Notes under the pieces: model-generated | What the model saw: the letters and a program-made list of their open reading frames with translations, nothing else | What the model was told of the DNA's origin: nothing | The model's database searches: none | Assembly: GCF_000011085.1 (NCBI RefSeq) | Contig: NC_006395.1 | Coordinates: 310,001 to 374,000 of the forward strand | Direction of reading: 5' to 3' | DNA length: 64,000 nt | Origin: Haloarcula marismortui ATCC 43049 | GTDB taxonomy: Archaea; Halobacteriota; Halobacteria; Halobacteriales; Haloarculaceae | Program-made: the position numbers and the translations under genes | Shown here: positions 37,635 through 53,880 of the stretch, one piece after another | How the letters are laid out: every line of letters starts with the position of its first letter | How positions within the stretch are numbered: position 1 is the stretch's first letter

Positions 37635-38273
37635 CTATGCCGTTGGAATGCAGTTCTGTACCTCTGCTATATCCGCACTTTCAATGATTGTGTCCGCTGC
37701 GTCGATTGCTGTTTCGGGAACGCGTTCATCGGGGTCAAATAACACCGCGGTATCTGCCTCGATGAACGCCTCCGTATCAGTGTGTGAATCGCCGATATAG
37801 GTGATTGAGACGGGATTCTGTTTGCTTCGAATCTTTCTCAGTAGCTCTCCTTTCTCATTGGGACCGACACCGATATCGATAGCCGAAACCCGTCTATCCT
37901 CGAACTGAAGCCAGTTTCCACGAACAAACGCCGGTTCGTACGGCTCGAATCGCGCTGCAAGGTTCGCAACGCCGGCACTGAGGATGCCGAATCGGATATC
38001 CGTTTGCTGGAGGTGGGCGAGGAGGTCGACAGCACCTGCTTTCGGCTTGAGGGCCCGGGTCGCACGAGTGATATCTGATCTGGTGATATCGTTCGCACGC
38101 CACATGTCGACCGCTCCCTGACACCACTCTGTAAACGTAATTTCTCCGGCCTCGAACCGGTTCATTAGCGTCTCGGCTTCCGGTGTTGTTCCGTAGAGGG
38201 TGTGCAACAGCTCGAACCCGCCGCGCTGTCGAGTGAGCGTCCCGTCGAGGTCGAACACTACAAGATGCGACAT
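37635..38273 (-). CDS. HAD-superfamily phosphatase (PSP-like)
   Basis: A 212-residue HAD hydrolase: motif I VVFDLDGTLT, motif II ILSAG, a Lys in GPNEKGELL, and motif III/IV YIGDSHTDTEAF. The small C1 cap fits phosphoserine phosphatase-like enzymes acting on small phosphorylated compounds. Last gene of a ten-gene operon. Its start lies one base after the RidA stop, so coupling is tight. It probably dephosphorylates an intermediate or by-product of the pathway. Confidence 0.83.
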   Translation of the reverse strand: MSHLVVFDLDGTLTRQRGGFELLHTLYGTTPEAETLMNRFEAGEITFTEWCQGAVDMWRANDITRSDITRATRALKPKAGAVDLLAHLQQTDIRFGILSAGVANLAARFEPYEPAFVRGNWLQFEDRRVSAIDIGVGPNEKGELLRKIRSKQNPVSITYIGDSHTDTEAFIEADTAVLFDPDERVPETAIDAADTIIESADIAEVQNCIPTA

Positions 38274-38274
38274 A

Positions 38275-38649
38275 CTACCGTTCTGCAACAACCTCTATCT
38301 CAACGTCGATATCGACTGGCAATTTAACGACTTCCACAGCACTGCGTGCAGGATAGGGTGGTGACATGAGCTCACCGTACACCTCGTTCACCTCGTCGTA
38401 GTATCGCATATCCTTCACGAACACCGTCGCCTTCACCACATCGTCGAGCGAAGCGCCACCGGCCTGCAACACGGCCGCGACGTTCCGGAGTGTACGCCGG
38501 GTCTGTTCACCGGGCGTGCCCTGGATTACCTCGCCGGTATCCGGGTCGACTGGCCCCTGCCCGGAAACGTACATACGGTCACCGCTAGCGATTCCCTGTG
38601 AGAACGGGCCGATACTATCAGGTGCGTCGTCTGTTGTTAGTTCTTCCAT
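38275..38649 (-). CDS. RidA family protein, operon-encoded
   Basis: A 124-residue YjgF-fold protein with GPFSQGI, GQGPVDPDTGE, the Arg in PPYPARSAVEVV, and the C-terminal VDIDVEIEVVA. It keeps the Arg that binds the substrate carboxylate, so imine/enamine deamination is plausible. Positioned 6 nt after the SDR stop and 1 nt before the HAD start. A dedicated RidA implies a nitrogen-bearing unsaturated intermediate in this pathway (inference). Confidence 0.87.
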   Translation of the reverse strand: MEELTTDDAPDSIGPFSQGIASGDRMYVSGQGPVDPDTGEVIQGTPGEQTRRTLRNVAAVLQAGGASLDDVVKATVFVKDMRYYDEVNEVYGELMSPPYPARSAVEVVKLPVDIDVEIEVVAER

Positions 38650-38655
38650 GGCTGT

Positions 38656-39498
38656 TTAATTGGGTGTCGGCTTTTCGTCCGCATCGTAGACCTCGTTGAT
38701 GAACGATGTTGGCAGGCTCGTCGTCAATCCGCCGTCAAGCACCAGATTCTCACCGGTCAAGAAACTCGACATTTCGGAGGCAAGGAACAGGGTCGTATCA
38801 GCGACTTCTCGCGGTGTGCCGAACCGCCCGAGCGGATACTGGTCGAGCCAGCGCTCCCGGGCGCTCGTTTCACCGGTCCGTTCCTCCGTGTTTTCCATCT
38901 CCGCCCGCCTGTTCGCTGTTTCGATGGTCGCCGCCGAAATAACGTTCGAGCGGACCCCGTGTTGCCCGTAGTGGGCGGCGATGTTTCGGGAGAGCGCCAG
39001 GAGCCCGCTTTTCGCCTCGGAGTAGCCGGAGAGACCGATACCGAACAGGCCGTTGACTGATCCCATATGGATTATCGACCCGCCGCCAGCGGCGACCATC
39101 GCTGGCAGTACCTCTTTGCTCAGGAGGAACTGGCTTTTCAGGTTCAGGTCGACCATCGATTCGAAGGTCTCCTCGTCACACCGGTGCAACAGATTGGCGG
39201 ATTCGTCTGCGCCACCAGCGTTGTTCACAAGCACGCGGATGTCCCCGAACTCTTGGATGGTCGTGTCGACAAGGTCCCGTACCGCCTCCCGGTCTGTAAC
39301 GTCACATTCGACCGGAACAACGCGGCCATCGTGTGTCTGGGTCAGTTCCGTCGCAACCGCTTCCACGTCCTCGTAGGTGCGCGAACAGACGACGACATCG
39401 CCACCAGCTTCGGCGAACCGGGCCGCGATCTCGCGCCCGATACCCCGTGATGCGCCAGTCACAATGGCTGGCCGGTCCGCTAGTGATAGCTCTACCAT
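38656..39498 (-). CDS. Short-chain dehydrogenase/reductase
   Basis: A 280-residue classical SDR: TGASRGIG coenzyme motif (about residue 14), CSRTYED suggesting NADP(H), NNAGG, and the catalytic triad Ser in MGSVNG, Tyr/Lys in YSEAKSG. The C-terminal DGGLTTSLP is typical of gluconate/3-oxoacyl-type SDRs. The frame is open about 109 codons upstream but not protein-like; MVELSLADRP is the family start. Within the operon, it probably oxidises a hydroxyl of the imported compound. Confidence 0.88.
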   Translation of the reverse strand: MVELSLADRPAIVTGASRGIGREIAARFAEAGGDVVVCSRTYEDVEAVATELTQTHDGRVVPVECDVTDREAVRDLVDTTIQEFGDIRVLVNNAGGADESANLLHRCDEETFESMVDLNLKSQFLLSKEVLPAMVAAGGGSIIHMGSVNGLFGIGLSGYSEAKSGLLALSRNIAAHYGQHGVRSNVISAATIETANRRAEMENTEERTGETSARERWLDQYPLGRFGTPREVADTTLFLASEMSSFLTGENLVLDGGLTTSLPTSFINEVYDADEKPTPN

Positions 39499-39547: not shown

Positions 39548-40717
39548 TCATGTGATTCGATACTCCTCGATGGCAGCCATGTCGATAGAAACTCCGAGAC
39601 CAGGACCGTCCGGGGCCGGGAGGCAGCCGTTGCTGACCTCGAACGGCCGCTCGATGATGTCTGCCTCCCAGCCGTAGTACGTCGAATCTGGGGGCAAGGA
39701 AAAGCCCGGGATGCCGGTGAACGCGTGGAGGATCGCCGCCGTTCGAATCCCCAGGTCGAACGCACAGTGGTGGGTAAAGGGAACCCCGGCGTCTTCAAGG
39801 ATGGCGGCCTGCTGTCGAATTCCACTGATGCCGCCGGCTGGGGTCAGGTCGATAACGCCGACATCCATCGCGCCAGCTTCGACAAGCGATTGCAGATTAT
39901 GCGAGATATACGTGTCCTCGTTCGGCGCGATCGGCTGGCGGAGTCGTTGTCGGAGCCTGGCTAGCGATCTGTGTGCATCGACGCGAATCGGCTGTTCCAT
40001 ATACTGCAGGTAGATACCCGCATCTTCGAGCATCGCGCCGACCCGAACCGCCTGGTCGAGCGTCCAGCCCTGATTCGGGTCGAGTCGAAATTCGAGCTGT
40101 CCGTCGACCTCATCGTGCATCGCTCTGATTCGCTCGACATCCTGTCGCCAGTCCCGTCCTGCCTTTGTTTTGAGGACAGTGAAGCCCGCTTCGTGCGCTT
40201 CTCGGGCTTTGACACGAGACTCCTCGGGCGAGAGGATGCCGAGACAGAAGGCAACAGGGACCTCAATAGGAGCAGTACTGTCGCCATCAACGCTTTGCCG
40301 GTGTTGTTGTGTCCCCTGTGTCGGTGCTGTCCATCCGCCGAGCAGCTCGTACACTGGTCTATCGAGGGCTTTCCCGACGATGTCCCAGCAGGCCGTTTCG
40401 ACGGCGGCAAAGAACATATCGACGTTGGTGTACTCGACGAACACCTGCCGGCGGAGTCGCTCGATTTCGAACGGCGACTGGCCCTCAATCATCGGCCCAA
40501 CTCCGTCTTCGATAATCGACTCGGTGGCTTCCGGTGACAGGAAGACACGCATCTCGCCCCAGCCGCTAAGGCCCTCATCTGTGTCGACACGGACGAGGAC
40601 GCGTTCCATCGAACGTAACTTTCCGTGGTTGGTCACGTACGGCCCGATTCCGAGGTGTTCATCCAAGTCGGCCAACGGTACATCTACAGTTACCGCTGAC
40701 ACGCCAGTTATCTCCAT
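39548..40717 (-). CDS. Enolase-superfamily enzyme (mandelate racemase/muconate lactonizing type)
   Basis: A 389-residue protein. The N-terminal capping domain is followed by a (beta/alpha)7beta barrel with KxK (LKTKAG, about 183-185), metal ligands Asp in RLDPNQGW, Glu in YMEQP and Glu/Asp in PNEDTY. VIDLTPAGG and FTHHCAFD supply an MR-type Asp/His pair. Family members dehydrate acid sugars or epimerise/racemise carboxylates by abstracting an alpha proton. The substrate here is unknown; the ABC sugar importer suggests a sugar acid or related polyol acid. The start MEITGVSAVTV fits the family. Confidence 0.85.
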   Translation of the reverse strand: MEITGVSAVTVDVPLADLDEHLGIGPYVTNHGKLRSMERVLVRVDTDEGLSGWGEMRVFLSPEATESIIEDGVGPMIEGQSPFEIERLRRQVFVEYTNVDMFFAAVETACWDIVGKALDRPVYELLGGWTAPTQGTQQHRQSVDGDSTAPIEVPVAFCLGILSPEESRVKAREAHEAGFTVLKTKAGRDWRQDVERIRAMHDEVDGQLEFRLDPNQGWTLDQAVRVGAMLEDAGIYLQYMEQPIRVDAHRSLARLRQRLRQPIAPNEDTYISHNLQSLVEAGAMDVGVIDLTPAGGISGIRQQAAILEDAGVPFTHHCAFDLGIRTAAILHAFTGIPGFSLPPDSTYYGWEADIIERPFEVSNGCLPAPDGPGLGVSIDMAAIEEYRIT

Positions 40718-40764: not shown

Positions 40765-41913
40765 TCAGCTCACTGTCTCGATGGCGGTTTCGACCCACTC
40801 CAGTGACTGCTCTGGAAGCAGTCCGTAGTTATAGAAGGATAGCCGCGGCACTCCTTTCGAGTCAAGAGTCTCCACGATATCGACCACGGTCGCCTCGTCG
40901 TCGATGGCCGGATGGCCCGGCAGGAGACCAATGTGGAGTGGCACGTCATCAATCACCGTCTCAACGGCGTTGTACGCACCTATGACTGCGTCACTTGACG
41001 ACTCGTAGGCCGGCAGACAGTAGTAATCGACGTGGTTCGAGAGCGCTTGTAGGTCGGCCCCGACGACCCACTCGCGGCCGGGCTCCGGTGCGCCGACGTA
41101 GTAGCCAAGCGATGTCGTTCCAGCGGCGTCAGCCAGCGTGGCGTACAGTGATGCCAGCGTCCGTTCGCGGACATCGACGTACGCGGCGACGGTGCTGTGG
41201 TCCGCGAGCCACTCCTCCGGTGGGTGCTCGTGTGACACGTCGCCGGCGACGATATCGTCTATCGTATCGGCGACAGTCGAACGTACCCGCTCAGCATCGA
41301 CACCCGCGGCCTTTGCGTTCTTGCGACAGTGTGGACAGAAACACAACCCGAGCAAGAATTCTCCGAGGACTCCCAACCGTGCGTGAATCTTCTGGTGGTG
41401 CCAGCCAAAGCCCGTCCCGTAGAAGTAATCGAACGTTTCCAGTTCGATACGAGCGAACTCATCGCGGGACGACAAATCCGAAACCAGTGCCGAGAGATAC
41501 GTCTGGACCGCGGGCTGGGAGGGACACAGGCCGAAGACCAGGTCGTCACCGTGTGCAGATTCCAGTGTGTACTCTGGATTGGCCATCCCGAGCCGAGAGT
41601 TGTGACAGCCCACTGTCCACGAATTGAGTGTCAGGTCAGACAAACCGGTCGCGGCGTCTGCGACCCAGTCGCCGTTCATTCCCTCGTACGGAACCGGTTC
41701 GAGGTCCCCGTACTCCGGACCAGGCTCGAAATACGAACTCGCGCGGGCAAACAGCGTCCGTCGCTCCGGACTGTGCGGCGTGAACGCCTGCACAGTGTGA
41801 TAGTTCGTCGCGAGGTTCAGCTCGTCGATGCCGATGTCACGCAGTCGCCGTTCCACCTCGGACGGCCCTTCGTCCAGAAGGTCCCACGGGTACGCCCACA
41901 TCGCGAATTCCAT
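40765..41913 (-). CDS. Uncharacterised TIM-barrel-like protein, operon-encoded
   Basis: A 382-residue soluble protein I cannot assign. It opens FAMWAYPWDLLDEG; regularly spaced strands (DELNLATNYH, RIELETFDYFY, TSLGYYVGAP, DYYCLPAYES, VPLHIGLLPG, PRLSFYNYGLL) suggest a (beta/alpha)8 barrel like glycoside-hydrolase-like proteins. A cysteine cluster, LGLCFCPHCRKNAK (about residue 191), could bind metal. Acidic residues in ELETFDYFYG could be catalytic. Between the permease and the enolase-superfamily gene with gaps under 50 nt, so it is likely a pathway enzyme, possibly a hydrolase or isomerase. Confidence 0.7.
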   Translation of the reverse strand: MEFAMWAYPWDLLDEGPSEVERRLRDIGIDELNLATNYHTVQAFTPHSPERRTLFARASSYFEPGPEYGDLEPVPYEGMNGDWVADAATGLSDLTLNSWTVGCHNSRLGMANPEYTLESAHGDDLVFGLCPSQPAVQTYLSALVSDLSSRDEFARIELETFDYFYGTGFGWHHQKIHARLGVLGEFLLGLCFCPHCRKNAKAAGVDAERVRSTVADTIDDIVAGDVSHEHPPEEWLADHSTVAAYVDVRERTLASLYATLADAAGTTSLGYYVGAPEPGREWVVGADLQALSNHVDYYCLPAYESSSDAVIGAYNAVETVIDDVPLHIGLLPGHPAIDDEATVVDIVETLDSKGVPRLSFYNYGLLPEQSLEWVETAIETVS

Positions 41914-41953: not shown

Positions 41954-42799
41954 CTACTCCTTGACCGCGCCAGCCGTCATCCCAGCGACGATATACTCCT
42001 CTAGGAAGGCGAACAAAATCAGGAGTGGGATAATACCAATCACAGACACAGTGAGCATCATCCGCCAGTCGGTCTGCAGCGCGCCGACCATCGAGAAGAC
42101 CCCGCGAGGGATGTTGTACTTCGCACTGTCAGTGAGGAAGGTAAGCACGAACAGCAGCCGATTCCACGCGTAGAGGAACGTGTAGGTGACACTGGCGACC
42201 AGCGCCGGCTTCGTGAGCGGGAGCACGATCTTCGTGAGGATCTGCAGTTGGCTCGCGCCGTCGATACGCGCTGACTCTTCGAGCGCGACGGGGATCGTCT
42301 TGAAATACCCGTACAGCATCCAGACGTTGAACGGCAGCGTGAACGCTGCCGCCGGGACGATCACAGCCAGATAGGTGTTGAACAGTCCCATCTGGGAGAT
42401 AACATCGAAGAGGCCGACGATCAACACAACCGGCGCGAACATCTGGACGACCAGCACGGAGAGGAGAAAGGTTCGCTTCCCCACGAAGTCGTTCCGGGCA
42501 CACGAGTACGCGGCCGGTATCGCCAGCAGAAGCGTCAACACGACCGTCCCCACCGAGATGATGAAGCTATTGCCGACCCAGAGCAACACGTCGGTCTGTG
42601 TCCAGACCTGCAGGTAGGCCTGGAGGCTGGGGTCGCTGGGGACCAGAGTCGCCGGTGCAGCGAAGATCTCCGACTCCGGCTTGAGCGTACTCGAGAACAT
42701 CGCGTAGAACGGCAACATCATGATCCCGAGTAGTCCGATCAGCACGCCGTAGAGCCGGACTTTGCGGAGACTGCTCCGGTCGTGGCCTGCCATCGTCAT
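41954..42799 (-). CDS. Carbohydrate ABC transporter permease (MalG type)
   Basis: A 281-residue CUT1 permease with six membrane segments. The ATPase-contacting EAA loop is EESARIDGASQLQILTKI, followed by PLTKPAL. The C-terminus (YIVAGMTAGAVKE) is a hallmark of MalG-type subunits. It overlaps the MalF-type gene by ATGA. An alternative ATG two codons in is possible. Confidence 0.92.
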   Translation of the reverse strand: MTMAGHDRSSLRKVRLYGVLIGLLGIMMLPFYAMFSSTLKPESEIFAAPATLVPSDPSLQAYLQVWTQTDVLLWVGNSFIISVGTVVLTLLLAIPAAYSCARNDFVGKRTFLLSVLVVQMFAPVVLIVGLFDVISQMGLFNTYLAVIVPAAAFTLPFNVWMLYGYFKTIPVALEESARIDGASQLQILTKIVLPLTKPALVASVTYTFLYAWNRLLFVLTFLTDSAKYNIPRGVFSMVGALQTDWRMMLTVSVIGIIPLLILFAFLEEYIVAGMTAGAVKE

Positions 42800-43734
42800 A
42801 GCTCGTCACCGCCGCGCGTGTAGATGCGCAGGTAGATGATTGCGAAGCCGAACAGGAACAGGAACCCGATGACACTGTAGGCGGCTCCGCGCCCGAGGTT
42901 CCCGTTCTGGAGCCCCACCTGATAGATGTGAATGACGAGCGTTGCCGTCGAACTGATCGGTCCGCCGCCGGTCATTGTCCAGATGACGTCGAAGCTGACG
43001 AACGTCCAGATCGTCGACAGCAGCGTGGCGATCAGGACGACGCTTTTGAGCTGTGGGAGCGTGATGTACCGAAACTGGTGCCACTTCTCGGCACCGTCGA
43101 TGGCGGCTGCCTCGTACAGTTCCTGTGGTATCGATTGCAACCCTGCAAGGAAGATAATCGCCATGAACGGCGTTCCGATCCAGATATCAGCCACGACGAC
43201 GCCGAGCCACGCCAGACTCGGGTTTCCGAGGATACCGATACCCTGTTCGATGATGCCGAGTTTTAGCAAGATCGCGTTGAGGTAGCCGAACTGCGGGTGC
43301 TCTATCCACCGGAACACCACAGCGGAGATCGCGTAGGGAATCCCCCACGGGATGAGAAACGCCGTGCGGAAGAACTTCCGACCGCGGATATCTCCCTTGA
43401 GGTGAACGGCGATGAGCAGTCCCAGCAGTGTCTTGCCCGCGACACCGGCGACGACCCAGCGACCGGTCTGCCAGAGCAGTCGGTAGAAGATGTCGCTGTT
43501 GAATATTTCGACGTAATGCTGCAGCCCCACGAACGTCTCGATGTTGGAGTCGGCGGGTGACTGGTACAGCGATAGCCGAAACGTCTCGATGATCGGGTAC
43601 CCGACAACGGCCAGCAGGAACACCGCTGCGGGAGCAATGAGGAGGTACGCTCGGCTATTGCGCTGGACGTACGCCAGCCCTCGTTCGAGACGTGAGTCAT
43701 CGGACGTTTCGGTGTATTCCTCTGCCAGACTCAT
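42796..43734 (-). CDS. Carbohydrate ABC transporter permease (MalF type)
   Basis: A 312-residue CUT1 permease with six membrane segments. The EAA loop reads YEAAAIDGAEKWHQFRYI, followed by TLPQLKSV. Begins 9 nt after the binding-protein stop and overlaps the MalG-type gene. With the MalG and MalK partners it forms a complete importer for sugars or sugar derivatives. Confidence 0.92.
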   Translation of the reverse strand: MSLAEEYTETSDDSRLERGLAYVQRNSRAYLLIAPAAVFLLAVVGYPIIETFRLSLYQSPADSNIETFVGLQHYVEIFNSDIFYRLLWQTGRWVVAGVAGKTLLGLLIAVHLKGDIRGRKFFRTAFLIPWGIPYAISAVVFRWIEHPQFGYLNAILLKLGIIEQGIGILGNPSLAWLGVVVADIWIGTPFMAIIFLAGLQSIPQELYEAAAIDGAEKWHQFRYITLPQLKSVVLIATLLSTIWTFVSFDVIWTMTGGGPISSTATLVIHIYQVGLQNGNLGRGAAYSVIGFLFLFGFAIIYLRIYTRGGDEL

Positions 43735-43743
43735 CCCTGTCTG

Positions 43744-45102
43744 TCACTCCATGGCATCTTTGAGATCACTCTGTGCATCGTTGAGCGCTTTCTGCGGTGA
43801 CTTCCGGTCCGCCAGTGCTTCCTGAATGGCTTGGACCATCCGGTCGTTGAACTCGCTGAAGTTACCGAGCTTCGGTCGGGCGCGGGCGTACTGCCCCGCC
43901 TCGACGAACGGTCCCCAGTTCTTCGACTCCGAGAAGTACGAGCGCTCCCCGACGGCTTCGACGACGGGGAGGAACCCTTTTTGCTTCGAGTACTGGAACC
44001 GTCGCTCCTCGTCGAAGTAGAACCGAATCAGGTCCCGGGCGAGGTCCTTGTGTTCACTCTGACTCAGGATGGCGAGCGTGTCGATAGTGAAGAGGCTGTA
44101 CCGACCTTCAGGGCCACGCGGTACCTGCACGATACCGTAATCGAAGTCGACATCACCGTTTTCCTTCGCGGCGGTGATGTTGAGTCCCGTGTACACGTGC
44201 CCGATGACCATCCCGAGGTCACCGTTCTCGAACAGCTGTCGGATGTCCTGCCGAGTTGAGGAGAGTGGCGATGACTGCGTGACATTGTGTTCGAGATGAA
44301 GGTCGGTGTACAACGAGAGGGCATCAACAGCGCCACTGGAGTTCACGACTGGCATTCCTTCGTCGTTGACGAGGTCTGCGCCGTGTGACCAGTGGTAGTG
44401 GTAGTACTGCGACCCGGTTTCGATTGCGTCGGCCCCTGCAAGGCCCAGTGCTGGGACGCTCGCATCACTGTCACGGATCTGCGTTGCGGCATCCAGCATA
44501 TCTTGCCACGAATCGAGCGACGGGTCTTCCGGGTCGAGCCCCGCCGTCTCGAAGACATCTTTGTTGTAGTAGAGGCACTTGTTCGAGGCGGCCCACGGCA
44601 CGCCGTAGTGGGAGCCGTTGTACATCGTTCCCTCGGCCACGCCGTCGTAGAACTGCTCGCCGAACCCCCCGTCCATCATGTCATCAAGCGGTTCGAGTGC
44701 GTCTTTGCCCACCAGCTGGGGGATCCAGCGTGCCGGCCACCGACTGACGTCGGGCGCTTCGCCGCCGTCGACACGGTTGTTCACGGTTTGCCGTGCGTTG
44801 TCCCACGTAACGCTGGTGAACTCTACGTCGACGCCGTGTTCGTCCTCGAAGGCCGCGTTGTTCTCCTCGAAGAACTGCTTGATGTTGTCCCCGACGCCCA
44901 TCGTGAGGAACTGCACGCTCTGCGTACTGCCGTCGCTGCCGCCACCGCCGCTCTCACTGTCGCCGTCACCCCCGTCACTGCCGCTCCCACCGTCGCCGCT
45001 GCACCCGGCGATGGCGATGGCGCCGCCTGCGCCAAGCGCCTGGAGAAGCCGTCGGCGGTCGATACTATCCTCGACAGACCTGTCGTTGTTATCGGGCTGC
45101 AT
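43744..45102 (-). CDS. Extracellular solute-binding lipoprotein of the CUT1 importer
   Basis: A 452-residue family-1 binding protein. A twin-arginine stretch (DRRRLLQALG) is followed by the lipobox IAIAGCSG, then a Gly/Ser/Asp-rich linker. It is therefore exported folded and lipid-anchored. Body motifs (EDEHGVDVEF, FYDGVAEGTMYNGSHYGVPW, YYNKDVFETAGLDPEDP) match sugar-binding proteins. ATG start chosen; a GTG four codons upstream is possible. Located between creatininase and permease genes. Confidence 0.9.
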   Translation of the reverse strand: MQPDNNDRSVEDSIDRRRLLQALGAGGAIAIAGCSGDGGSGSDGGDGDSESGGGGSDGSTQSVQFLTMGVGDNIKQFFEENNAAFEDEHGVDVEFTSVTWDNARQTVNNRVDGGEAPDVSRWPARWIPQLVGKDALEPLDDMMDGGFGEQFYDGVAEGTMYNGSHYGVPWAASNKCLYYNKDVFETAGLDPEDPSLDSWQDMLDAATQIRDSDASVPALGLAGADAIETGSQYYHYHWSHGADLVNDEGMPVVNSSGAVDALSLYTDLHLEHNVTQSSPLSSTRQDIRQLFENGDLGMVIGHVYTGLNITAAKENGDVDFDYGIVQVPRGPEGRYSLFTIDTLAILSQSEHKDLARDLIRFYFDEERRFQYSKQKGFLPVVEAVGERSYFSESKNWGPFVEAGQYARARPKLGNFSEFNDRMVQAIQEALADRKSPQKALNDAQSDLKDAME

Positions 45103-45157: not shown

Positions 45158-45958
45158 TCAGGCATTGTTCTCGTGAATCGCAACCATGAGGGCCGCGAGT
45201 TCGTCGCCGATGACCGAGCGGATTCGTTCGCCTGTCTCCGCGCTCGCCTGCTTCGGCGTCCCGATAGCTCCGGATGAGGAATACTCGTCGAACGAGCGGT
45301 AGACAGAGACGTTGCCCCCGTCAAGCAAGTCTTGCCCGCCCCAGCCGTAGTGTTCGTCCATCGGTTCACCGTCGCGGACCGCCGGGTCACCCACGAGGTC
45401 TGGTCGGAGCGCAAGCATGAGGGACGTCTCGAACTCACCGCCGTGAGCCATCCCCCCTGTCTCGGTGGTCCGGAGCTCCTCGATTCTATCCGACGCCAGA
45501 TGGAAGTACGTCGTCCCGAGTACTTCCGCATCAGTGTCGACGCCCACAGTACTCACGACGGCGTCGATGAGTGAACTGTTCCCGCCGTGGCCGTTGACGA
45601 ACAGCATCGCGTCGAATCCGTTCTGGATGCCAGCGTGTGCGATATCCTCAAGTGTCGCTCGCAAGTGCGCGAACTCGAGTGAGAGGGTCCCACCGAACGA
45701 CAGATGGTGTGGCGAGAACCCACTCCAGACCGGCGGTGTCACGACGACAGGAACGCCATCTAGGCGCTCGATAGCAGTGTCGACCATCGCCTCGACGAGG
45801 AGTGTGTCGGTGACGACCGGGAGGTGGTTCCCGTGCTGTTCGACGCTTCCGACGGGAATAACGAGAACTGAGCCCGGCTGTTCGCCAACATTTCGGATCT
45901 GACCCGCAGTCATCCCAGCCCACTCGCTCTCTTTCCGACCGATAGTATCGTACAACAT
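45158..45958 (-). CDS. Creatininase-family amidohydrolase, operon-encoded
   Basis: A 266-residue protein with GSVEQHGNHLPVVTDT (Glu, His, Asp ligands), NGHGGNSS (His) and AHGGEFETS (Glu). Creatininase opens the cyclic amide of creatinine; relatives cut other cyclic or formyl amides. It starts 1 nt after the MalK-type ATPase stop, so it belongs to the operon. It is longer than, and differs from, the ArfB-like copy at 19483. It likely hydrolyses an amide bond of the imported compound. Confidence 0.85.
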   Translation of the reverse strand: MLYDTIGRKESEWAGMTAGQIRNVGEQPGSVLVIPVGSVEQHGNHLPVVTDTLLVEAMVDTAIERLDGVPVVVTPPVWSGFSPHHLSFGGTLSLEFAHLRATLEDIAHAGIQNGFDAMLFVNGHGGNSSLIDAVVSTVGVDTDAEVLGTTYFHLASDRIEELRTTETGGMAHGGEFETSLMLALRPDLVGDPAVRDGEPMDEHYGWGGQDLLDGGNVSVYRSFDEYSSSGAIGTPKQASAETGERIRSVIGDELAALMVAIHENNA

Positions 45959-45959
45959 A

Positions 45960-47057
45960 TTACACCGACTCTGTCCGCTGCAACTGATTCAGTTCCACAC
46001 GCTCGCCATCTGGACCGAACAGATGCATATCCTCTGTATGAAACCCGAGCGCGATTTTGTCGCCCCGTTCTGGGCGGTATTCGCTACTGACCCGGGCAAC
46101 GACTTCTTTCGACCCGCCTGCAGTCTCCAGATAGAGGAAGTTGTCAGACCCCATTGGTTCTACGACATCGACAACTGTATTGATGTACTCGCCGGCGTCC
46201 TCGGCGACGAAATCTTCCGGGCGGACGCCCAGCGTGTACTCCCCGTCCGGAATGTCGACGTTGAGCGTAAACTCAATATTTGACGAGTGGAACGTCGCGT
46301 GCCCGCCGCTATTGGTTACACTCGCTTCGAAGAAGTTCATCGATGGTGACCCGATGAACCCCGCGACAAATTTGTTGTTGGGCTCATCGTAGCAGCGTTC
46401 CGGTGGCGCGACCTGCTGGAGTTCACCCTGATTGAGAATCACGATCCGGTCGGCCATCGTCATCGCTTCCGTCTGATCGTGCGTGACGTAAATCGTCGTC
46501 ACGTCCAACTCTTCTTGGATCCGCTGGATCTCCGTGCGCATCTGTGTCCGAAGCTTCGCGTCGAGATTCGACAGCGGTTCGTCCATCAGAAACACGTCCG
46601 GGTCGCGGACAATAGCCCGCCCAAGTGCGACACGCTGTTGCTGGCCACCCGAGAGTTGCTTCGGCAGGTCGTCCATGAGGTCCGCAATCTCCAGCAGTTC
46701 GGCGGCCTCAGTCACGCGCTGTTCGATTTGATCATCGTACTCGCCTGACAGTCGGAGCCCGAAGGACATGTTATCGCGCACGGTCATATGCGGGTACAGT
46801 GCGTAGCTCTGGAACACCATCGCAATGTTCCGGTCCTGTGGACGAACGTCGTTGACTACGCTCCCCCCGATAGCAATCTCACCGTCGGTGACTGTTTCGA
46901 GCCCAGCAATCATCCGAAGTGTGGTCGATTTCCCACATCCGGATGGGCCGACAACGACGACAAACTCACCGTCCTCGACGGCCAGAGAAAGGTCCTCAAC
47001 TGCAAGGACATCGTCGTCGTATACCTTGCTGACGTTTGATAGTGTAACTTCGCTCAT
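45960..47057 (-). CDS. ABC transporter ATP-binding protein (MalK/UgpC type)
   Basis: A 365-residue ATPase: Walker A GPSGCGKST, signature LSGGQQQRVALGRA, Walker B VFLMDEPLSNLD, and switch His in YVTHDQTEA. A C-terminal TOBE/MalK regulatory domain follows from about residue 240 (GVRPEDF). It begins the ten-gene operon; MSEVTLSNVSKVY is the canonical start, and the upstream open frame is the promoter region. Divergent from an IclR regulator across 528 nt. Confidence 0.93.
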   Translation of the reverse strand: MSEVTLSNVSKVYDDDVLAVEDLSLAVEDGEFVVVVGPSGCGKSTTLRMIAGLETVTDGEIAIGGSVVNDVRPQDRNIAMVFQSYALYPHMTVRDNMSFGLRLSGEYDDQIEQRVTEAAELLEIADLMDDLPKQLSGGQQQRVALGRAIVRDPDVFLMDEPLSNLDAKLRTQMRTEIQRIQEELDVTTIYVTHDQTEAMTMADRIVILNQGELQQVAPPERCYDEPNNKFVAGFIGSPSMNFFEASVTNSGGHATFHSSNIEFTLNVDIPDGEYTLGVRPEDFVAEDAGEYINTVVDVVEPMGSDNFLYLETAGGSKEVVARVSSEYRPERGDKIALGFHTEDMHLFGPDGERVELNQLQRTESV

Positions 47058-47585: not shown

Positions 47586-48368
47586 ATGCCCTCACAGAAC
47601 AACAAAACGATCAGCGCGGTCGAGACAACGCTGGACATTCTCGCTGCCCTCGGAAAAGTTGAACCAGTCGGTCTTTCCGAGCTTGCGTCTCATCTTGATA
47701 TCCCCACAAGTACTGTCTTTATCCACCTCAACACACTTGTCCAGCGGGACTACGTTGTCAAGGATGCCGGGCAGTATCGTCGATCGTTCCGCTTTCTTGA
47801 GCTCGGTGGCAGCGTTCGGCAAAGACTGGACATCGGCCGACTGCTTCGCAATAAGGTTGAAGAACTCAGCAGAGAAACTGGCGAGATTGCTGGTGCCGGC
47901 ATCGAGGAGAACGGCCAGCGGGTCATTCTCTACAGGAGCTCAGGCGGAAAGGCTGCAGGCGACGAAATTCCCATTGGGAATCACACAGAGATGCACTGGA
48001 CATCGCTGGGCAAAGTAATTCTGGCGCACCTTCCGGTGGAAAAACGAAACGAAATCGTTGCCGACCATGGGCTTCCGAAAGGGACTGATAACACGTTGTC
48101 ATCCCGGTCTGCTCTCGAAGCGGCGCTTGAACGAATTCGCGACCAGGGCTATGCGATAGACGACGAGGAGCATCTCAGAGGTGTTCGAGGTGTCGCTGTT
48201 CCGATATTCAACGACGAACAGGAAGTCATGGTGTCTCTTGGTATTACTGGGCCCAGAGATCGATTCACCTCCAGATACATGGCAAATCTGCTTGAGATAC
48301 TTCGATATACGAAAAACGAAATCGAAGTTCGAAGTCAGTACTACGAATACAGTACGATAGACGGATAG
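47586..48368 (+). CDS. IclR family transcriptional regulator
   Basis: A 260-residue regulator: winged HTH at about residues 8-70 (LSELASHLDIPTSTVFIHLNTL) and a GAF-like effector domain (GVAVPIF, WTSLGKVILAHLP). IclR proteins bind catabolic promoters as dimers and respond to the pathway's substrate. Divergent from the ABC/creatininase operon, which it presumably controls, with candidate operators between. Confidence 0.9.
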   Translation: MPSQNNKTISAVETTLDILAALGKVEPVGLSELASHLDIPTSTVFIHLNTLVQRDYVVKDAGQYRRSFRFLELGGSVRQRLDIGRLLRNKVEELSRETGEIAGAGIEENGQRVILYRSSGGKAAGDEIPIGNHTEMHWTSLGKVILAHLPVEKRNEIVADHGLPKGTDNTLSSRSALEAALERIRDQGYAIDDEEHLRGVRGVAVPIFNDEQEVMVSLGITGPRDRFTSRYMANLLEILRYTKNEIEVRSQYYEYSTIDG

Positions 48369-48797: not shown

Positions 48798-49580
48798 ATG
48801 TCTGTGAATACCACGGAACTATCGATCGAGATTATTGATATCGTCTCCGACCGTGACGGTGCACGGCTTCGGGATATCGTTGAAGAGGTAGACGTGGCCA
48901 AGAGTACTGCACATAAGCACCTCACCACGCTCCGCGACAGCGGCTTTCTGGTCAAACGCGGCGAAATCTATCAGGTCGGGTTGCGGTTCTTGAATTACGG
49001 TGAACAGGCACGAAGCCGATGGCCCGGCTATCCGCATATCGAGGAAGCAATCGCAGCCCTCACCGAACGGACAGAGGAAGAGTGTGACTTCGTGGCTCCG
49101 GACCGTGGCAGGGTTATCACAATCGCCGAATCGTACCACAAGTGGGCAAAGTTCGAGGGGACGACCACTGACGGACCATCGAAGGAGTACCGGGCCAGAA
49201 CGGGGTCATATTATCACATGCACGCGACCGCGTCTGGGCTGGCAGTGTTGTCCACCTATTCCAAGTCCCGGGTCGAAGACGTTATCGAGCGGTGGGGGCT
49301 CCCTGCACGGACTGACCACACGATCACGTCGCGGGAAGAGTTGCACGCCGAACTGGAGCAGATTCGAGAACGCGGCTACGCTGTCGACGATCAGGGGTAC
49401 ACTGACGGGATGCGAAGCATTGGGAAAGCCGTTCACGGGCCGGAGGGGGACGTGATTGGCGCGCTCAGTGTCTCGGGCCCGACCTATCGGGTCGATGGGA
49501 TGGTTCTCGAACAGGAAGTTCCGAATGCACTCAGGGATGTCGTTGACGAACTTGAAGAGCGTCTCCGAACGACGAACTAA
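48798..49580 (+). CDS. IclR family transcriptional regulator
   Basis: A 260-residue regulator. HTH RLRDIVEEVDVAKSTAHKHLTTL lies near residue 20, and the effector domain contains HATASGLAVLSTY and GRVITIAES. Start MSVNTTELS aligns with family N-termini; the open frame upstream is not conserved-looking. Divergent in sequence from the IclR at 47586. It precedes the PotABCD-type importer, so it probably senses that importer's substrate. Confidence 0.88.
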   Translation: MSVNTTELSIEIIDIVSDRDGARLRDIVEEVDVAKSTAHKHLTTLRDSGFLVKRGEIYQVGLRFLNYGEQARSRWPGYPHIEEAIAALTERTEEECDFVAPDRGRVITIAESYHKWAKFEGTTTDGPSKEYRARTGSYYHMHATASGLAVLSTYSKSRVEDVIERWGLPARTDHTITSREELHAELEQIRERGYAVDDQGYTDGMRSIGKAVHGPEGDVIGALSVSGPTYRVDGMVLEQEVPNALRDVVDELEERLRTTN

Positions 49581-49734
49581 TCTTGGCGGCGCGTTTCGTA
49601 ACAACACCCTGTTTTCTAGCCACCGACTACTAGTCCGTCTCTGGCTGGAACATCCCACTTCATTTCTTCCCAAGCGATGCTTTCTGCTGGAATCGCGGAC
49701 TGTGGTTGCATCAGAGTGGGGTATCGAAGGTAGT

Positions 49735-49744
49735 TTTTTATAAT
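49735..49744 (+). promoter_or_regulatory. TATA box TTTTTATAAT
   Basis: Centred about 30 nt before the ATG at 49770. The identical ten bases precede the alcohol dehydrogenase start at the same spacing (54044-54053). Confidence 0.55.
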
Positions 49745-49769
49745 ATGCGTGGAATATGTGCGTATAGCA

Positions 49770-50963
49770 ATGTGTGGCAATAACGAGCATACCGAGAGCG
49801 AACCGATCCGACAGTCTGGGACCAGCCGTCGACGGTTCTTGACCGCCGCCGGAGCTGGAACCGCCGGTGTGTTTGCTGGATGCGCTTCGTTGGCCAGCGA
49901 TGACGGCGACGGTGGGACCGGTGGTGAAAGTGGCGGTGCCAGCACGGGCGACAGTAGTAGTGGCCAGGATTTCAGCGGTGAGACACTGCGCGTAATGGTC
50001 TGGAGCGGGAACTACGCTGACCGCTTCGAAGAAACGATAAAACCGATGTACGAAGAGCGGACTGGTGGTCGATTACAGGTCAACCGCGGCTGGAACGAGA
50101 TCCTGGCAAAAATCAGATCAGCACCGGAGGATCAGCCACCGTTTGATGTCACCATCACGGAGGGGTATTTTTACCTCCTTGGTCGCAACGATGACCTGTT
50201 CTTGCCGGTACGAGAGGAGAACGTGCCGAATCTGGATGGCGTCATTGACTATTACACTGATTTCCGAACCACGGAGTTCGGGGTCCCCGTCGACGGTGCG
50301 CCGACGACGCTCATCTATCGAAACGATATAGATTTCGAACCGACCACCTGGGCCGACCTTGCCGCCCCAGAAGCCGCCAACGGGAATGGAATCGGTATCG
50401 ACAAAGGGTTCTGGTGGTTCCCACAGCATGACGCTGCTGTCGCGATGGATGCGAAGGAGCTTGCTGGGGAAGTGTACGATGAGGACCTCTCGATGGACGT
50501 GTTTGACTATATGGAGGAGCAGTGGAACATCCAGGGCTGGGCTTCTTCCGGGGAAGACATCTGGCAACTGTTCGAGAACGGCATTATCGACCACGCGCAG
50601 TGGTACTACGAACAGACCGCGTACGATATTGACGACTATCCTAACCTGAGCCACACCGCACCGGATAGAAACAGCGGTTTCGTCAACCACTGGTGTCCGG
50701 TCCGTGGCACTGACAAACGGCGGATGGCGGAGGATTTCTTGAATTTCCTGCTGGACGCCGAGACCCAGACACGGTGGTCGGAAAACAGTCCGACGCTGTT
50801 TACGAATACGGACATGGAATACGCGACTGAAAAACTCAACGAGGACCTCCCCAACAACAGTGACGAAGCAGCGCTCGTCGCCTGGCCGGAGTTCGATTAC
50901 ATCAACTCGAACTTTGACAGCTTCAACCAGCGGATCTCGGAGATGGAGGCGAGTTCGAACTAG
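49770..50963 (+). CDS. Spermidine/putrescine-type ABC substrate-binding lipoprotein
   Basis: A 397-residue PotD-like protein. Twin-arginine SRRRFLTAAGAG and lipobox VFAGCAS are followed by a Gly/Ser/Asp linker. The body (LRVMVWSGNYADRFEE, YFYLLGRNDDLFLPV, TTLIYRND) matches periplasmic binding proteins of polyamine/thiamine-type importers. Start MCGNNEHTE is supported by TATA spacing; a GTG seven codons upstream is possible. First gene of an importer operon; the substrate need not be a polyamine. Confidence 0.88.
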   Translation: MCGNNEHTESEPIRQSGTSRRRFLTAAGAGTAGVFAGCASLASDDGDGGTGGESGGASTGDSSSGQDFSGETLRVMVWSGNYADRFEETIKPMYEERTGGRLQVNRGWNEILAKIRSAPEDQPPFDVTITEGYFYLLGRNDDLFLPVREENVPNLDGVIDYYTDFRTTEFGVPVDGAPTTLIYRNDIDFEPTTWADLAAPEAANGNGIGIDKGFWWFPQHDAAVAMDAKELAGEVYDEDLSMDVFDYMEEQWNIQGWASSGEDIWQLFENGIIDHAQWYYEQTAYDIDDYPNLSHTAPDRNSGFVNHWCPVRGTDKRRMAEDFLNFLLDAETQTRWSENSPTLFTNTDMEYATEKLNEDLPNNSDEAALVAWPEFDYINSNFDSFNQRISEMEASSN

Positions 50964-51027
50964 CGATGTCGGGACCGATGTTTACAAGGGACCAGTGTCT
51001 CAGTGGCCAACACGAATTGCATAACTC

Positions 51028-52164
51028 ATGTCGGAGATAGAACTACAGAACCTCTCGAAATCGTTCGGGGAGCTCGATGCGGTGACAGATGTCTCCCTAT
51101 CCGTTCGGGACGGGGAACTGTTGTGCTTACTCGGTCCCAGTGGCTGTGGCAAGTCGACGACGATGCGAATGATCAGTGGGCTGGAGACACCGTCGTCCGG
51201 GACAGTCTACATCGGAGATGCGGACGTGACCGACGAACCGGCCTACGACAGGGACACCTCGATGGTGTTCCAGAACTGGGCGCTGTTCCCTTACAAGACC
51301 GTACTTGAGAACGTTGCGTTCGGTCTCAAGATGCGTGGCATGGGAAAACAGCAGCGGCGTGACCGCGCCAGCGAGATGCTGGACCGCGTTCACATGGATG
51401 GGTATGAAAGTCACAGTCCGACCGACCTCTCGGGTGGCCAGAAACAGCGTGTCGCGCTGGCACGGTCGCTGGCAGTGGACCCTGACGTGCTACTGCTTGA
51501 TGAACCCCTCTCGAACTTGGATAAGCGACTGCGTGAGGAGATGGAGATCGAGCTGAAAGATATTCGCGAAGAGTTTCAGAAAACGTTCGTTCACGTCACA
51601 CACAATCAGGACGAAGCGTTCACCCTTGCTGATCGTATCGGCATAATGAACGATGGGCGACTGGTGCAGGTCGGAGAGCCGAATGAAGTGTATCGGGACC
51701 CGAAAAACAAGTTTGTCGAGGAATTCCTGGGTGATACAAACTTCGTCAGTGGTACTGTAAGCGACAGTGACGGCCAGTACAGCTATCTGGTGACGGAGTT
51801 CGACTCGGAGATCCGTGTACCGGTGACTTCGAAAATCCAGCCCGAAGCGTCCCTTACTGTCTCGCTCCGTCCCGAGTTCATGCAAATAGCTCCTCTCACC
51901 GATGAATCAACCCGGGCATCTCACCAGACCCGTGCCGACGGTAACGGCGGTGGTGGTGGTGTTTCCGGGACCGTAGAGAGTACTATTTATCGCGGCTCCA
52001 GCATCCGCCATGTCGTCGACATCGGCGGGGAGCAACTGTTCGTCGAACAGAGCGTTACTGACCAATCAGCAATTGATGAAGGAGATACGGTTGAGCTCAG
52101 CTGGGATATCGATGACATACTGCTGTTCCGTCCCGACGGCACGAGGGTGAGGGACCGACAATGA
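51028..52164 (+). CDS. ABC transporter ATP-binding protein (PotA type)
   Basis: A 378-residue ATPase: Walker A GPSGCGKSTTM, signature DLSGGQKQRVALARS, Walker B VLLLDEPLSNLD, switch His in HVTHNQDEA. The TOBE domain from about residue 235 contains a Gly-rich insertion (GNGGGGGVSG). Overlaps the next gene by ATGA. Follows the binding protein by 64 nt. Confidence 0.92.
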   Translation: MSEIELQNLSKSFGELDAVTDVSLSVRDGELLCLLGPSGCGKSTTMRMISGLETPSSGTVYIGDADVTDEPAYDRDTSMVFQNWALFPYKTVLENVAFGLKMRGMGKQQRRDRASEMLDRVHMDGYESHSPTDLSGGQKQRVALARSLAVDPDVLLLDEPLSNLDKRLREEMEIELKDIREEFQKTFVHVTHNQDEAFTLADRIGIMNDGRLVQVGEPNEVYRDPKNKFVEEFLGDTNFVSGTVSDSDGQYSYLVTEFDSEIRVPVTSKIQPEASLTVSLRPEFMQIAPLTDESTRASHQTRADGNGGGGGVSGTVESTIYRGSSIRHVVDIGGEQLFVEQSVTDQSAIDEGDTVELSWDIDDILLFRPDGTRVRDRQ

Positions 52165-52376
52165 GTGTCGACTCCAGAACGACTGTGTTAGACCGCCTCT
52201 GGTCGCTATTTGAGGGACAGTCTGGCTCTCGCCGCTCGTTGTTGCTGATGAGCCCACTGATCCTGTTCGAGTTGCTGGTGTTCGTGGTTCCGTTTCTGTT
52301 GCTGGTTCGCATCAGTTTCAGCGAACAGTCACAGGGCCTCCCGTATGCCGAGGGGACGTTCACCATCGCATCGTAA
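52161..52376 (+). CDS. ABC permease (PotB type), N-terminal fragment before in-frame stop
   Basis: The first 71 codons of the permease: a cytosolic N-terminus and the first membrane helix (LILFELLVFVVPFLLLV) followed by a periplasmic stretch FAEGTFTIAS-like ending. It stops at TAA, and the same frame continues with no shift into the remaining permease. Alone it cannot form a channel. It could be an expressed half, or the product of a recent nonsense mutation (for example TAC to TAA). Confidence 0.75.
   Translation: MSVDSRTTVLDRLWSLFEGQSGSRRSLLLMSPLILFELLVFVVPFLLLVRISFSEQSQGLPYAEGTFTIAS
52374..52376 (+). pseudogene. In-frame TAA splitting the PotB-type permease gene
   Basis: The codon follows TCG and is directly followed by GTG. 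The frame is the same on both sides (52161 to 53081), so a single substitution explains the break. TAAGTG would also allow immediate re-initiation, so the gene may be split rather than dead. Confidence 0.75.
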
Positions 52377-53081
52377 GTGCAGGTCCTCCAGTCTGAGTTG
52401 CTCCAGGGAATCATCGTGTATTCGTTCAAGCTCGGCATCATCGCGACGCTACTCACAGTCGTCCTCGCGGTTTTCTATGCATATGCCACCTGGCGCGCGA
52501 ACGGGGTGCGGAAATCGGCCCTGTTATTTTCGGTTGTGCTGCCGCTGTTGACGACACTCGTAATCAAGACGTACGTGTGGGTTCCGTTGCTGGCTCCGAA
52601 CGGGACGGCCAACAGCCTCTTGCTCGCAGTCGGCCTCATTCAGGCACCCCTGCAGATAGTCCCGAACACGCTTGGCGTCGTCATCGGACAAGTGTATATC
52701 GTCTTCCCGTATGCGATGCTGGCAATTTACAGCGTCCTGACAACCGTTGAATGGGAGCTTGTCGAGGCGGCCAGGGACCTCGGAGCCAGCCGAATCCGGT
52801 CTTTCTTTGCGGTCGTTCTGCCAGAGATTATGCCAGGAATCACCGTCGCGACTGTTATCTCCTTTGCCTGGAGCGTCGGCGCGTATTCCGCACCGGCGCT
52901 GCTCGGTGCAGGGAGCGATCGCCCGTTCGCACTCGAAGTGCAGGAGCAGATGCTAGTCAATTTCAACTGGCCGATAGCCACTGCCCTCTCGACGGTAATG
53001 CTCGTCCTGATGTTCGTGAGCATTCTTGTCATCTACACTGTCCTCGGCCGCTTTGGAGGTGACGTGACCAATGCAACGTAG
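52377..53081 (+). CDS. ABC permease (PotB type), main part with five helices
   Basis: A 234-residue segment starting at the GTG right after the TAA. It holds the remaining membrane helices and the EAA loop (EAARDLGASRIRSFFAVVLPE) that docks the ATPase. A normal PotB protein would be the two parts joined, about 306 residues. The next gene starts inside its last 11 nt, so the operon otherwise looks intact. Works only if re-initiation, readthrough or assembly of the two parts occurs. Confidence 0.82.
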   Translation: MQVLQSELLQGIIVYSFKLGIIATLLTVVLAVFYAYATWRANGVRKSALLFSVVLPLLTTLVIKTYVWVPLLAPNGTANSLLLAVGLIQAPLQIVPNTLGVVIGQVYIVFPYAMLAIYSVLTTVEWELVEAARDLGASRIRSFFAVVLPEIMPGITVATVISFAWSVGAYSAPALLGAGSDRPFALEVQEQMLVNFNWPIATALSTVMLVLMFVSILVIYTVLGRFGGDVTNAT

Positions 53082-53880
53082 TCTCGAATGGCTTGGAACG
53101 GCAGCGTTTCGCATCGGTTATATAGCGATATTCGTTGTCATGCTGTTACCGCTGGGTATTGTTATTGCAACGTCCTTCTCCGCGTCGGGGAACTTGCAGT
53201 TCCCGCCGCAAGCGCTCTCCCTGCGATGGTACAGCGCGTTCTTTGCCGATGTGGTGTGGCTACGAGCGTTCGATAATAGTCTCGTCGTCGGTGTCGGAAC
53301 GACGGTCGTCGCTACGTTTATGGGCATCACGGCTGCGTTCGGTCTTGAAGCACACAGAGGCCGGTTCGGTGATATCCTGACGCCCATCGTCATCCTACCA
53401 TTGCTCATTCCGCCGGTCATCCTTGGGGTGACGCTGCTCGTGTATTTCAGCAGGCTTGGGTTTCGGTCGTCGTATCTCAGCATCATCTTGGCCCACAGTC
53501 TCTGGGCCACACCGCTCGTGTTCTTCGTGATGCAGTCCGTCTTCCAGCGGTTCGACTGGCAACTGCGCGACGCTGGGATGGACCTCGGGGCGAATCCGAT
53601 CCGTGTGTTCATCCACGTCATCCTGCCGAACGTCAAAAGCGGGATACTTGTGTCTGCGCTGCTGGCGTTCATTATCAGCCTGCAGGAGTTCGTGATGGCG
53701 CTGTTCCTGTCGAACTATCAGACGCAGACGATTCCCGTGCTGGCCTGGAATTCCCTGCGCCAGTCGCTTACGCCCATCGTCAGTGTCGTCTCGACGTTTC
53801 TCATCCTCATCTCCGTTGTCGGGCTCCTCGCCGCCGCTCTCGCCACAAATATCGAATTCGTGGCGAAACGGTTGTCCTGA
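53071..53880 (+). CDS. ABC permease (PotC type)
   Basis: A 269-residue permease with six membrane segments. EAA loop: DAGMDLGANPIRVFIHVILP. Starts within the preceding permease gene (11-nt overlap). Its stop codon lies in a 14-nt perfect palindrome. Completes the PotABCD-type importer. Confidence 0.9.
   Translation: MQRSLEWLGTAAFRIGYIAIFVVMLLPLGIVIATSFSASGNLQFPPQALSLRWYSAFFADVVWLRAFDNSLVVGVGTTVVATFMGITAAFGLEAHRGRFGDILTPIVILPLLIPPVILGVTLLVYFSRLGFRSSYLSIILAHSLWATPLVFFVMQSVFQRFDWQLRDAGMDLGANPIRVFIHVILPNVKSGILVSALLAFIISLQEFVMALFLSNYQTQTIPVLAWNSLRQSLTPIVSVVSTFLILISVVGLLAAALATNIEFVAKRLS

Follow-up and report, generated by a model that had tools for sequence, protein, structure and literature searches.

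Haloarchaea have no peptidoglycan of their own. The C-terminal domain of PgaB, a bacterial polysaccharide-export enzyme, belongs to family GH153 and acts on poly-GlcNAc. The known members of GHL10, Cwp19 of Clostridioides difficile and DigH of E. coli, act on the glycan strands of peptidoglycan, as two reports describe (PMC6016235, PMC12288456), and the first of these shows Cwp19 to be a lytic transglycosylase. In Cwp19 the catalytic Glu of strand 7 is replaced by Gly328, which is conserved in GHL10, and Tyr297 ends strand 6, according to a further study (PMC5765458). With respect to oxidized chitin, the account of the ong cluster in Pseudoalteromonas describes the conversion of GlcNAc1A to KDG by a D-aminoacylase and a D-amino acid deaminase, and the loss of growth on GlcNAc1A upon deletion of the RidA gene (PMC9537276). 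A comparison of ten haloarchaeal genomes left the use of GlcNAc in haloarchaea open (PMC3102087), and a word search of the main text of a survey of archaeal peptidoglycan hydrolases returned neither NamZ, GHL10 nor "recycling" (PMC12352652).

The window analysed here is a stretch of 64,000 nucleotides from Haloarcula marismortui ATCC 43049. A first-pass annotation had placed an unassigned protein at 40765-41913, between permease and enolase-superfamily genes of a catabolic operon. An open frame lies exactly there on the minus strand, with an ATG start and 382 residues plus stop, and its neighbours are a permease gene (41954-42799) and an enolase-superfamily gene (39548-40717), as described. 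The protein, called Q here, agrees at all of its 382 residues with WP_011222725.1 of H. marismortui plasmid pHMA411, annotated as a hypothetical protein, and is the only match in the whole genome of the window. On the plus strand the matching frame is interrupted by stops, and the other frames that overlap Q give no sign of being genes. Q is the sixth gene of a tight catabolic operon of ten head-to-tail genes, running from 47057 down to 37635 in the order ugpC, creatininase family, substrate-binding protein, two permeases, Q, enolase superfamily, SDR, RidA and HAD-IB. The intergenic gaps are -4 to 49 bases, with the gap between the creatininase and binding-protein genes at 55 bases if the annotated start of the binding protein is used. 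The features of the locus are as follows.

47586..48368, plus strand: IclR-type regulator, divergent, upstream of the operon (record annotation and profile match)
45960..47057, minus strand: ABC ATPase UgpC (NF008653 over cut-off)
45158..45958, minus strand: creatininase-family hydrolase (all NCBIfam models below cut-off)
43744..45102, minus strand: sugar ABC substrate-binding protein (weak GanS/MalE-type matches below cut-off)
42796..43734, minus strand: sugar ABC permease 1 (matching record)
41954..42799, minus strand: carbohydrate ABC permease 2 (matching record)
40765..41913, minus strand: Q, barrel protein of 382 residues, probably cytosolic (WP_011222725.1 in the matching record)
41524..41526, minus strand: codon of Cys130, first Cys of the proposed zinc site (Cys in 84/84 rows; aligned to a conserved GH42 Cys)
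41437..41439, minus strand: codon of Glu159 at the end of strand 4, proposed general acid/base (84/84 rows; hhalign match to the glycoside hydrolase acid off by one)
41326..41343, minus strand: codons of C191-F-C193-P-H-C196, the CFCxxC cluster (Cys in 84/84 rows; aligned to GH42 CxCxxC)
39548..40717, minus strand: enolase-superfamily (MR/MLE) gene with K-x-K, Asp/Glu/Glu and His motifs (record annotation and motifs)
38656..39498, minus strand: SDR dehydrogenase (glucose 1-dehydrogenase subfamily model over cut-off)
38275..38649, minus strand: RidA-type enamine/imine deaminase (TIGR00004 over cut-off)
37635..38273, minus strand: HAD-IB phosphatase (TIGR01488 over cut-off)

Residues K183, K185, D213, E241, E267, D290 and H317 of the enolase-superfamily protein are kept in all 61 cluster rows. 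Directly upstream of the operon, at 48798-53880 of the window, is another ABC system, which has an IclR-type regulator of its own.

Q belongs to a family found in 67 of 391 haloarchaeal genomes and 28 of 86 genera, including 17 of the 24 genomes listed for the genus of the window. Bacterial relatives were surveyed in plasmid records, of which 150 carry the family, 112 of them from Rhizobium. No description of the family was found in the literature searched. After removal of duplicates, the alignment holds 84 distinct proteins, and 19 residues are invariant in all of them: W6, W10, G28, H39, P46, W99, H104, C130, P131, E159, H173, C191, F192, C193, C196, R249, G285, Y303 and Y361. The conservation of Q, with four Cys among these residues, is more than chance. 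Most rows begin five to nine residues before W6, directly at strand 1, with some longer frames whose start positions are unverified; given these starts and the lack of a cell-wall-binding part, Q is probably cytosolic. The order from ugpC to RidA is kept in 13 of the 17 loci L031-L047; of the other four, one is cut by the contig start, one is rearranged and two, from Haladaptatus, are different. In an actinobacterial locus (Nonomuraea, L171:5586-8368), the Q relative directly follows an MR/MLE gene, and genes for a DHDPS-family protein and sugar permeases are close by.

The first-pass annotation recognised no family for the protein, and profile searches bear this out. The best Pfam match, GHL10 (PF02638), scores 10.9 bits against a gathering score of 27.9, so that no Pfam model is over cut-off for Q, and neither NCBIfam nor a PDB sequence search with Q alone gives a match. 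A PDB search with 16 close rows gives weak, unrelated matches only. No clear match to a characterised family of unrelated function, which was to have spoken against the annotation, turned up. "Unassigned" therefore stands in the sense that Q has no named family, but remote kin do exist among the glycoside-cleaving barrels of GHL10 and GH42 type. For the profile tests with Pfam, the PDB and hhalign, 27 of the 84 rows were taken. Sub-threshold Pfam matches among these 27 members are to GHL10 (12), DUF4015 (8) and GHL6 (2); the 12 GHL10 matches were counted at E up to 1, with a best E of 0.0024, and two orthologues score 24.1 and 23.1 bits against GHL10 in a genome search. Pfam Glyco_hydro_42 matches neither Q (E up to 10) nor any of the 27 homologues (E up to 1). 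With the 27-row profile, hmmsearch of the PDB finds 4s1a (E 0.0012) and Cwp19 (E 0.0032), and hhalign aligns the same profile to GHL10 (seven rows, including E. coli DigH) at 95.4% and E 1.7e-8 and to GH42 (17 rows) at 65.9% and E 5.7e-5, against 0.1 to 14.2% for 11 control families, barrels included. Support is thus good for Q as a remote relative of the GHL10 and GH42-type barrels, and it is set apart as a separate family-level variant of that kind because the cut-offs of the GHL10 and GH42 models are not reached. A true GHL10 protein (locus L099, G047:C2:321610-322455; 122 bits) lies about 6 kb from a Q gene in a cluster with NamZ, NagZ and AnmK, and it is the only GHL10 over cut-off in the 145 haloarchaeal genomes searched.

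Sequence profiles are more telling than fold for the kinship of Q. The (beta/alpha)8 pattern guessed from the letters is borne out by an AlphaFold2 model from a 16-row alignment (mean pLDDT 77.2, pTM 0.80), which is an eight-stranded barrel with strands at residues 2-7, 31-34, 95-102, 155-158, 268-272, 297-302, 326-330 and 357-360. The stretch ELETFDYFYG, read as a strand in the first-pass annotation, is residues 157-166 and does hold the end of strand 4. Confidence in the model falls below a pLDDT of 50 at 40-48, 50-64, 71-74 and 162-176, near the active site. VIA-align ranks the GH42 beta-galactosidase 1kwg at the top (Z 20.4, rmsd 3.5, 286 aligned), with Cwp19 (5oq3; Z 20.0, rmsd 3.6, 274 aligned) and PgaB (4p7l; Z 19.4, rmsd 3.5, 286 aligned, 13% identity) tied with it within about 1 Z. 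Fold alone says little, since 962 of 999 chains score 8 or more. A Foldseek comparison of the model, as the annotation had suggested, gives query TM-scores of 0.49-0.56 for the first 11 rows, from GH42, Cwp19 and PgaB.

In the model, the strand ends carry E159 (strand 4), Y303 (strand 6) and G329 (strand 7), with Y361 after strand 8. Among the strand ends, only that of strand 4 bears an invariant acid, Glu159 (84/84 rows). The Glu nucleophile that GH42 carries at the end of strand 7 is absent from Q, where G329 occupies this place in 82 of 84 rows, with no conserved Glu. Glu159 is proposed as the general acid/base of Q, and this is the weak point of the active-site comparison, as in the hhalign alignment it precedes the acid position of GHL10 by one residue, and this alignment stops at residue 174, short of strands 6 and 7. 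The Cys cluster LCFCPHC is present at residues 190-196 and hints at a metal, for which the annotation had suggested an analysis, but a structural role is likelier than a catalytic one. When Q is aligned with 17 haloarchaeal GH42 proteins, C130 pairs with a Cys conserved in GH42, and C191-x-C193-x-x-C196 is in register with the GH42 CxCxxC. The aligned GH42 positions are presumably the zinc site of the Thermus A4 enzyme. Because the four Cys of Q match this conserved site, Cys130, Cys191, Cys193 and Cys196 probably form a structural zinc site, and a catalytic role for the cluster was set lower owing to the same match.

Q genes lie close to genes for amino-sugar salvage in part of the family. 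Among the 391 haloarchaeal genomes, NamZ occurs in 16 and AnmK in 15, and Q is carried by 15 of the 16 NamZ genomes (hypergeometric 1.1e-11) and by all 15 AnmK genomes (7.8e-13), in a calculation that ignores kinship between genomes. Of the 18 NamZ places, 15 are within 3 kb of Q and 16 within 15 kb, and all 15 AnmK places are within 13 kb. The lone exception to the linkage is genome G378 (C2:540451-543800), with two NamZ genes and no Q or AnmK match. The tree was built from 73 of the 84 rows, leaving out nine near-identical Haloarcula rows and L056 and L058, whose duplicates L077 and L073 are also absent. All 17 NamZ-labelled loci fall in one 28-row set (100/100), beside 11 rows not so linked, and the Q of the window lies outside this set. 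The tree program warns of long branches meeting, the rhizobial branch among them, so that the rhizobial position is unsure. Profile search of the window genome gives no NamZ and no AnmK match, and the amino-sugar link of the window therefore runs only via common neighbours and the sister clade.

The loci L055, L079, L082 and L084-L087 hold genes for AnmK, a beta-lactamase-fold serine hydrolase, Q, NamZ, NagZ and creatininase, most with IclR and several with GH18. MurQ is over cut-off in none of 17 genomes (the 16 NamZ genomes and the window genome). All 17 give partial matches, which score 19-37 bits (cut-off 302) and lie in frames of at least 543 residues; we take them to be the sugar-isomerase domain of GlmS-type proteins. 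The NagB family is absent from the 24 Q genomes searched. These clusters are apparently for archaeal amino-sugar salvage without MurQ over cut-off, and no account of such haloarchaeal clusters was found in the literature searched, which was covered in part. The existence of archaeal clusters with NamZ, NagZ and AnmK and without MurQ over cut-off suggests that sugars of bacterial cell walls serve as food for some archaea, through a route not yet described.

The neighbours of Q were also compared between 40 Q loci and 40 control stretches, using bit-score thresholds of our own. Creatininase genes are found in 17 versus 1, MR/MLE in 12 versus 0, SDR in 14 versus 0 and RidA in 7 versus 0, where the Q loci comprise only mid and distant matches (L059-L098), from related genomes and so not independent, and the controls are fixed places, two in each of 20 genomes. 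These four kinds of gene are common to the window side and the NamZ-linked sister clade. Linkage to HAD-IB beyond the window type is unsupported (1 versus 0 of 40 loci). Genes for KDPG aldolase and KDG kinase lie near the operon in all five Haloferax loci (L036-L039, L047), and in none of the 40 control stretches or the other 63 Q loci examined. In all four rhizobial-type loci, Q is adjoined by a D-serine-dehydratase-type PLP gene and an amidohydrolase gene; an aspartoacylase-type gene is present in 4/4 (in L049 about 10 kb off) and RidA in 2/4 (L051, L053). In Haloprofundus (L056/L077), Q, creatininase, MR/MLE, SDR and RidA genes stand amid sulfatase and ceramidase-like genes, perhaps a sulfated-sugar variant.

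The first-pass annotation called Q a likely new pathway enzyme, which we too infer from context. We tentatively propose, with somewhat less than even confidence, that Q works in the cytosol as a barrel enzyme cleaving glycosidic bonds, and that it opens an amino-sugar glycoside after import, as the first step of an oxidative route to 2-keto-3-deoxygluconate. The linkage is well supported, the substrate class moderately so and each reaction step weakly; the zinc, the catalytic residue, the substrate and every reaction step are what we infer. In short, a CUT1-type ABC importer would bring in a small glycoside, and Q would cut the glycosidic bond with Glu159 as single acid/base, while Cys130, 191, 193 and 196 would hold a structural zinc ion. 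Because the position of the GH42 beta-7 nucleophile is Gly329 in Q, a group of the substrate itself (2-acetamido or 6-hydroxyl), and not the enzyme, is proposed to trap the intermediate. The SDR might then oxidize C1, the creatininase-family enzyme might open the lactone or remove an acyl group, the enolase-superfamily enzyme might eliminate the C3 substituent to give an enamine, and RidA might hydrolyse the enamine, such that 2-keto-3-deoxygluconate would pass to kinase and aldolase. Peptidoglycan claims are confined to the sister clade because the window operon has no muramic-acid gene. A role as a lytic transglycosylase that supplies the window operon with 1,6-anhydro sugars was set lower, given that the window genome is without AnmK.

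Counting against Q as an amino-sugar glycosidase, NamZ and NagZ already cut those bonds in the sister-clade clusters, where a third glycosidase would be partly redundant. The same redundancy favours a somewhat unlikely alternative, that Q is a metal-dependent isomerase, epimerase, deacetylase or hydrolase without glycosidic cleavage, with a catalytic divalent ion bound by H39, H104, E159 and H173. All four are invariant (84/84 rows), are found immediately behind strands 2, 3 and 4 and in the loop that follows strand 4, and would indeed fit such a metal, and Foldseek also matches D-psicose and D-tagatose 3-epimerases (E 5.8e-6 and weaker). The query TM-scores of the epimerases, however, are 0.29-0.40, below those of the GH42, Cwp19 and PgaB rows, and the profile kinship is with GHL10 and GH42 and with no tested barrel outside the glycoside hydrolases. 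That Q instead removes the D-lactyl ether of muramic acid, or a similar ether, in place of MurQ would agree with the lack of MurQ over cut-off and with Q as a steady close neighbour of NamZ, but is quite improbable: 52 of the 67 Q genomes have no NamZ, the rhizobial and window operons show no muramic-acid genes, and the enolase-superfamily enzyme or another cluster gene could do the ether step. We know of no barrel etherase of the D-lactyl-ether type.

It is also unlikely, though a little less so than an etherase, that Q in clade A is a barrel glycosidase for other substrates, such as a glycoside from plants or algae or a sugar conjugate resembling an opine, with amino sugars confined to the sister clade. 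The contexts of clade A do vary, with fucosidase, GH38 and GH2 genes at L048 and an M20 peptidase and a dipeptide epimerase at L057, and the substrate-binding protein of the operon weakly resembles, below cut-off, binding proteins for galacto-oligosaccharides and maltose. Yet several clade A loci that are not of the window type also keep creatininase, MR/MLE or RidA, and the clade A Q of genome G270 lies 9.2 kb from NamZ, with OngC-like and GH3 genes near.

A bolder form of the proposed amino-sugar glycosidase, speculative and unlikely to hold in full, is a MurQ- and NagB-independent oxidative route for the amino sugars of bacterial cell walls and chitin in haloarchaea. Q would define this route and represent a new family of glycoside hydrolases that work with a single acid and without a nucleophile from the enzyme, and that carry a zinc clip of the GH42 type. 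The enolase-superfamily enzyme and RidA would turn 2-amino-aldonates, with loss of water, or of D-lactate from muramate, into 2-keto-3-deoxygluconate. Such a use of the two enzymes on 2-amino-aldonates was not found described for amino sugars in the accessible text of the literature examined. With the present analysis, an orphan family present in 67 of 391 haloarchaeal genomes and 150 plasmid records gains a testable function and a first fold.

Compared with the known systems, Q shares the barrel fold of GHL10, which is its best profile match (95.4%, with a Z of 20.0 for Cwp19), but it scores below the Pfam cut-off and is without a cell-wall-binding part. By strand position in the model, Q resembles Cwp19, with Tyr at the end of strand 6 and Gly at the end of strand 7, whereas the acid at strand 4 is Asp196 in Cwp19 and, in Q, E159, which the profile alignment places one residue early. 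The four-Cys site of Q lies outside the profile alignment with GHL10 except for C130, for which DigH has no Cys partner. GH42 (1kwg) is the top VIA-align match and has the C...CxCxxC in register in the 17 haloarchaeal proteins, but Q is without the conserved strand-7 Glu and without a Pfam GH42 match, and its 382 residues leave no room for the further domains of the GH42 frames compared (661-920 residues). The C-terminal domain of PgaB (Z 19.4, 13% identity) has an amino-sugar substrate that fits the context of Q. The available text on the ong cluster describes no Q-like protein (PMC9537276). Like that cluster, Q loci have recurring genes of RidA, D-aminoacylase, D-amino acid deaminase and KDG kinase type, and partial ong-type gene sets are found at L054, at L093 and in rhizobia. 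Homologues of OngB, OngC, OngD and KdgK do not occur together in the window operon, which of the four gene types named has RidA only, plus an enolase-superfamily gene. For the function of the Q clusters, the ong pathway is the best model.
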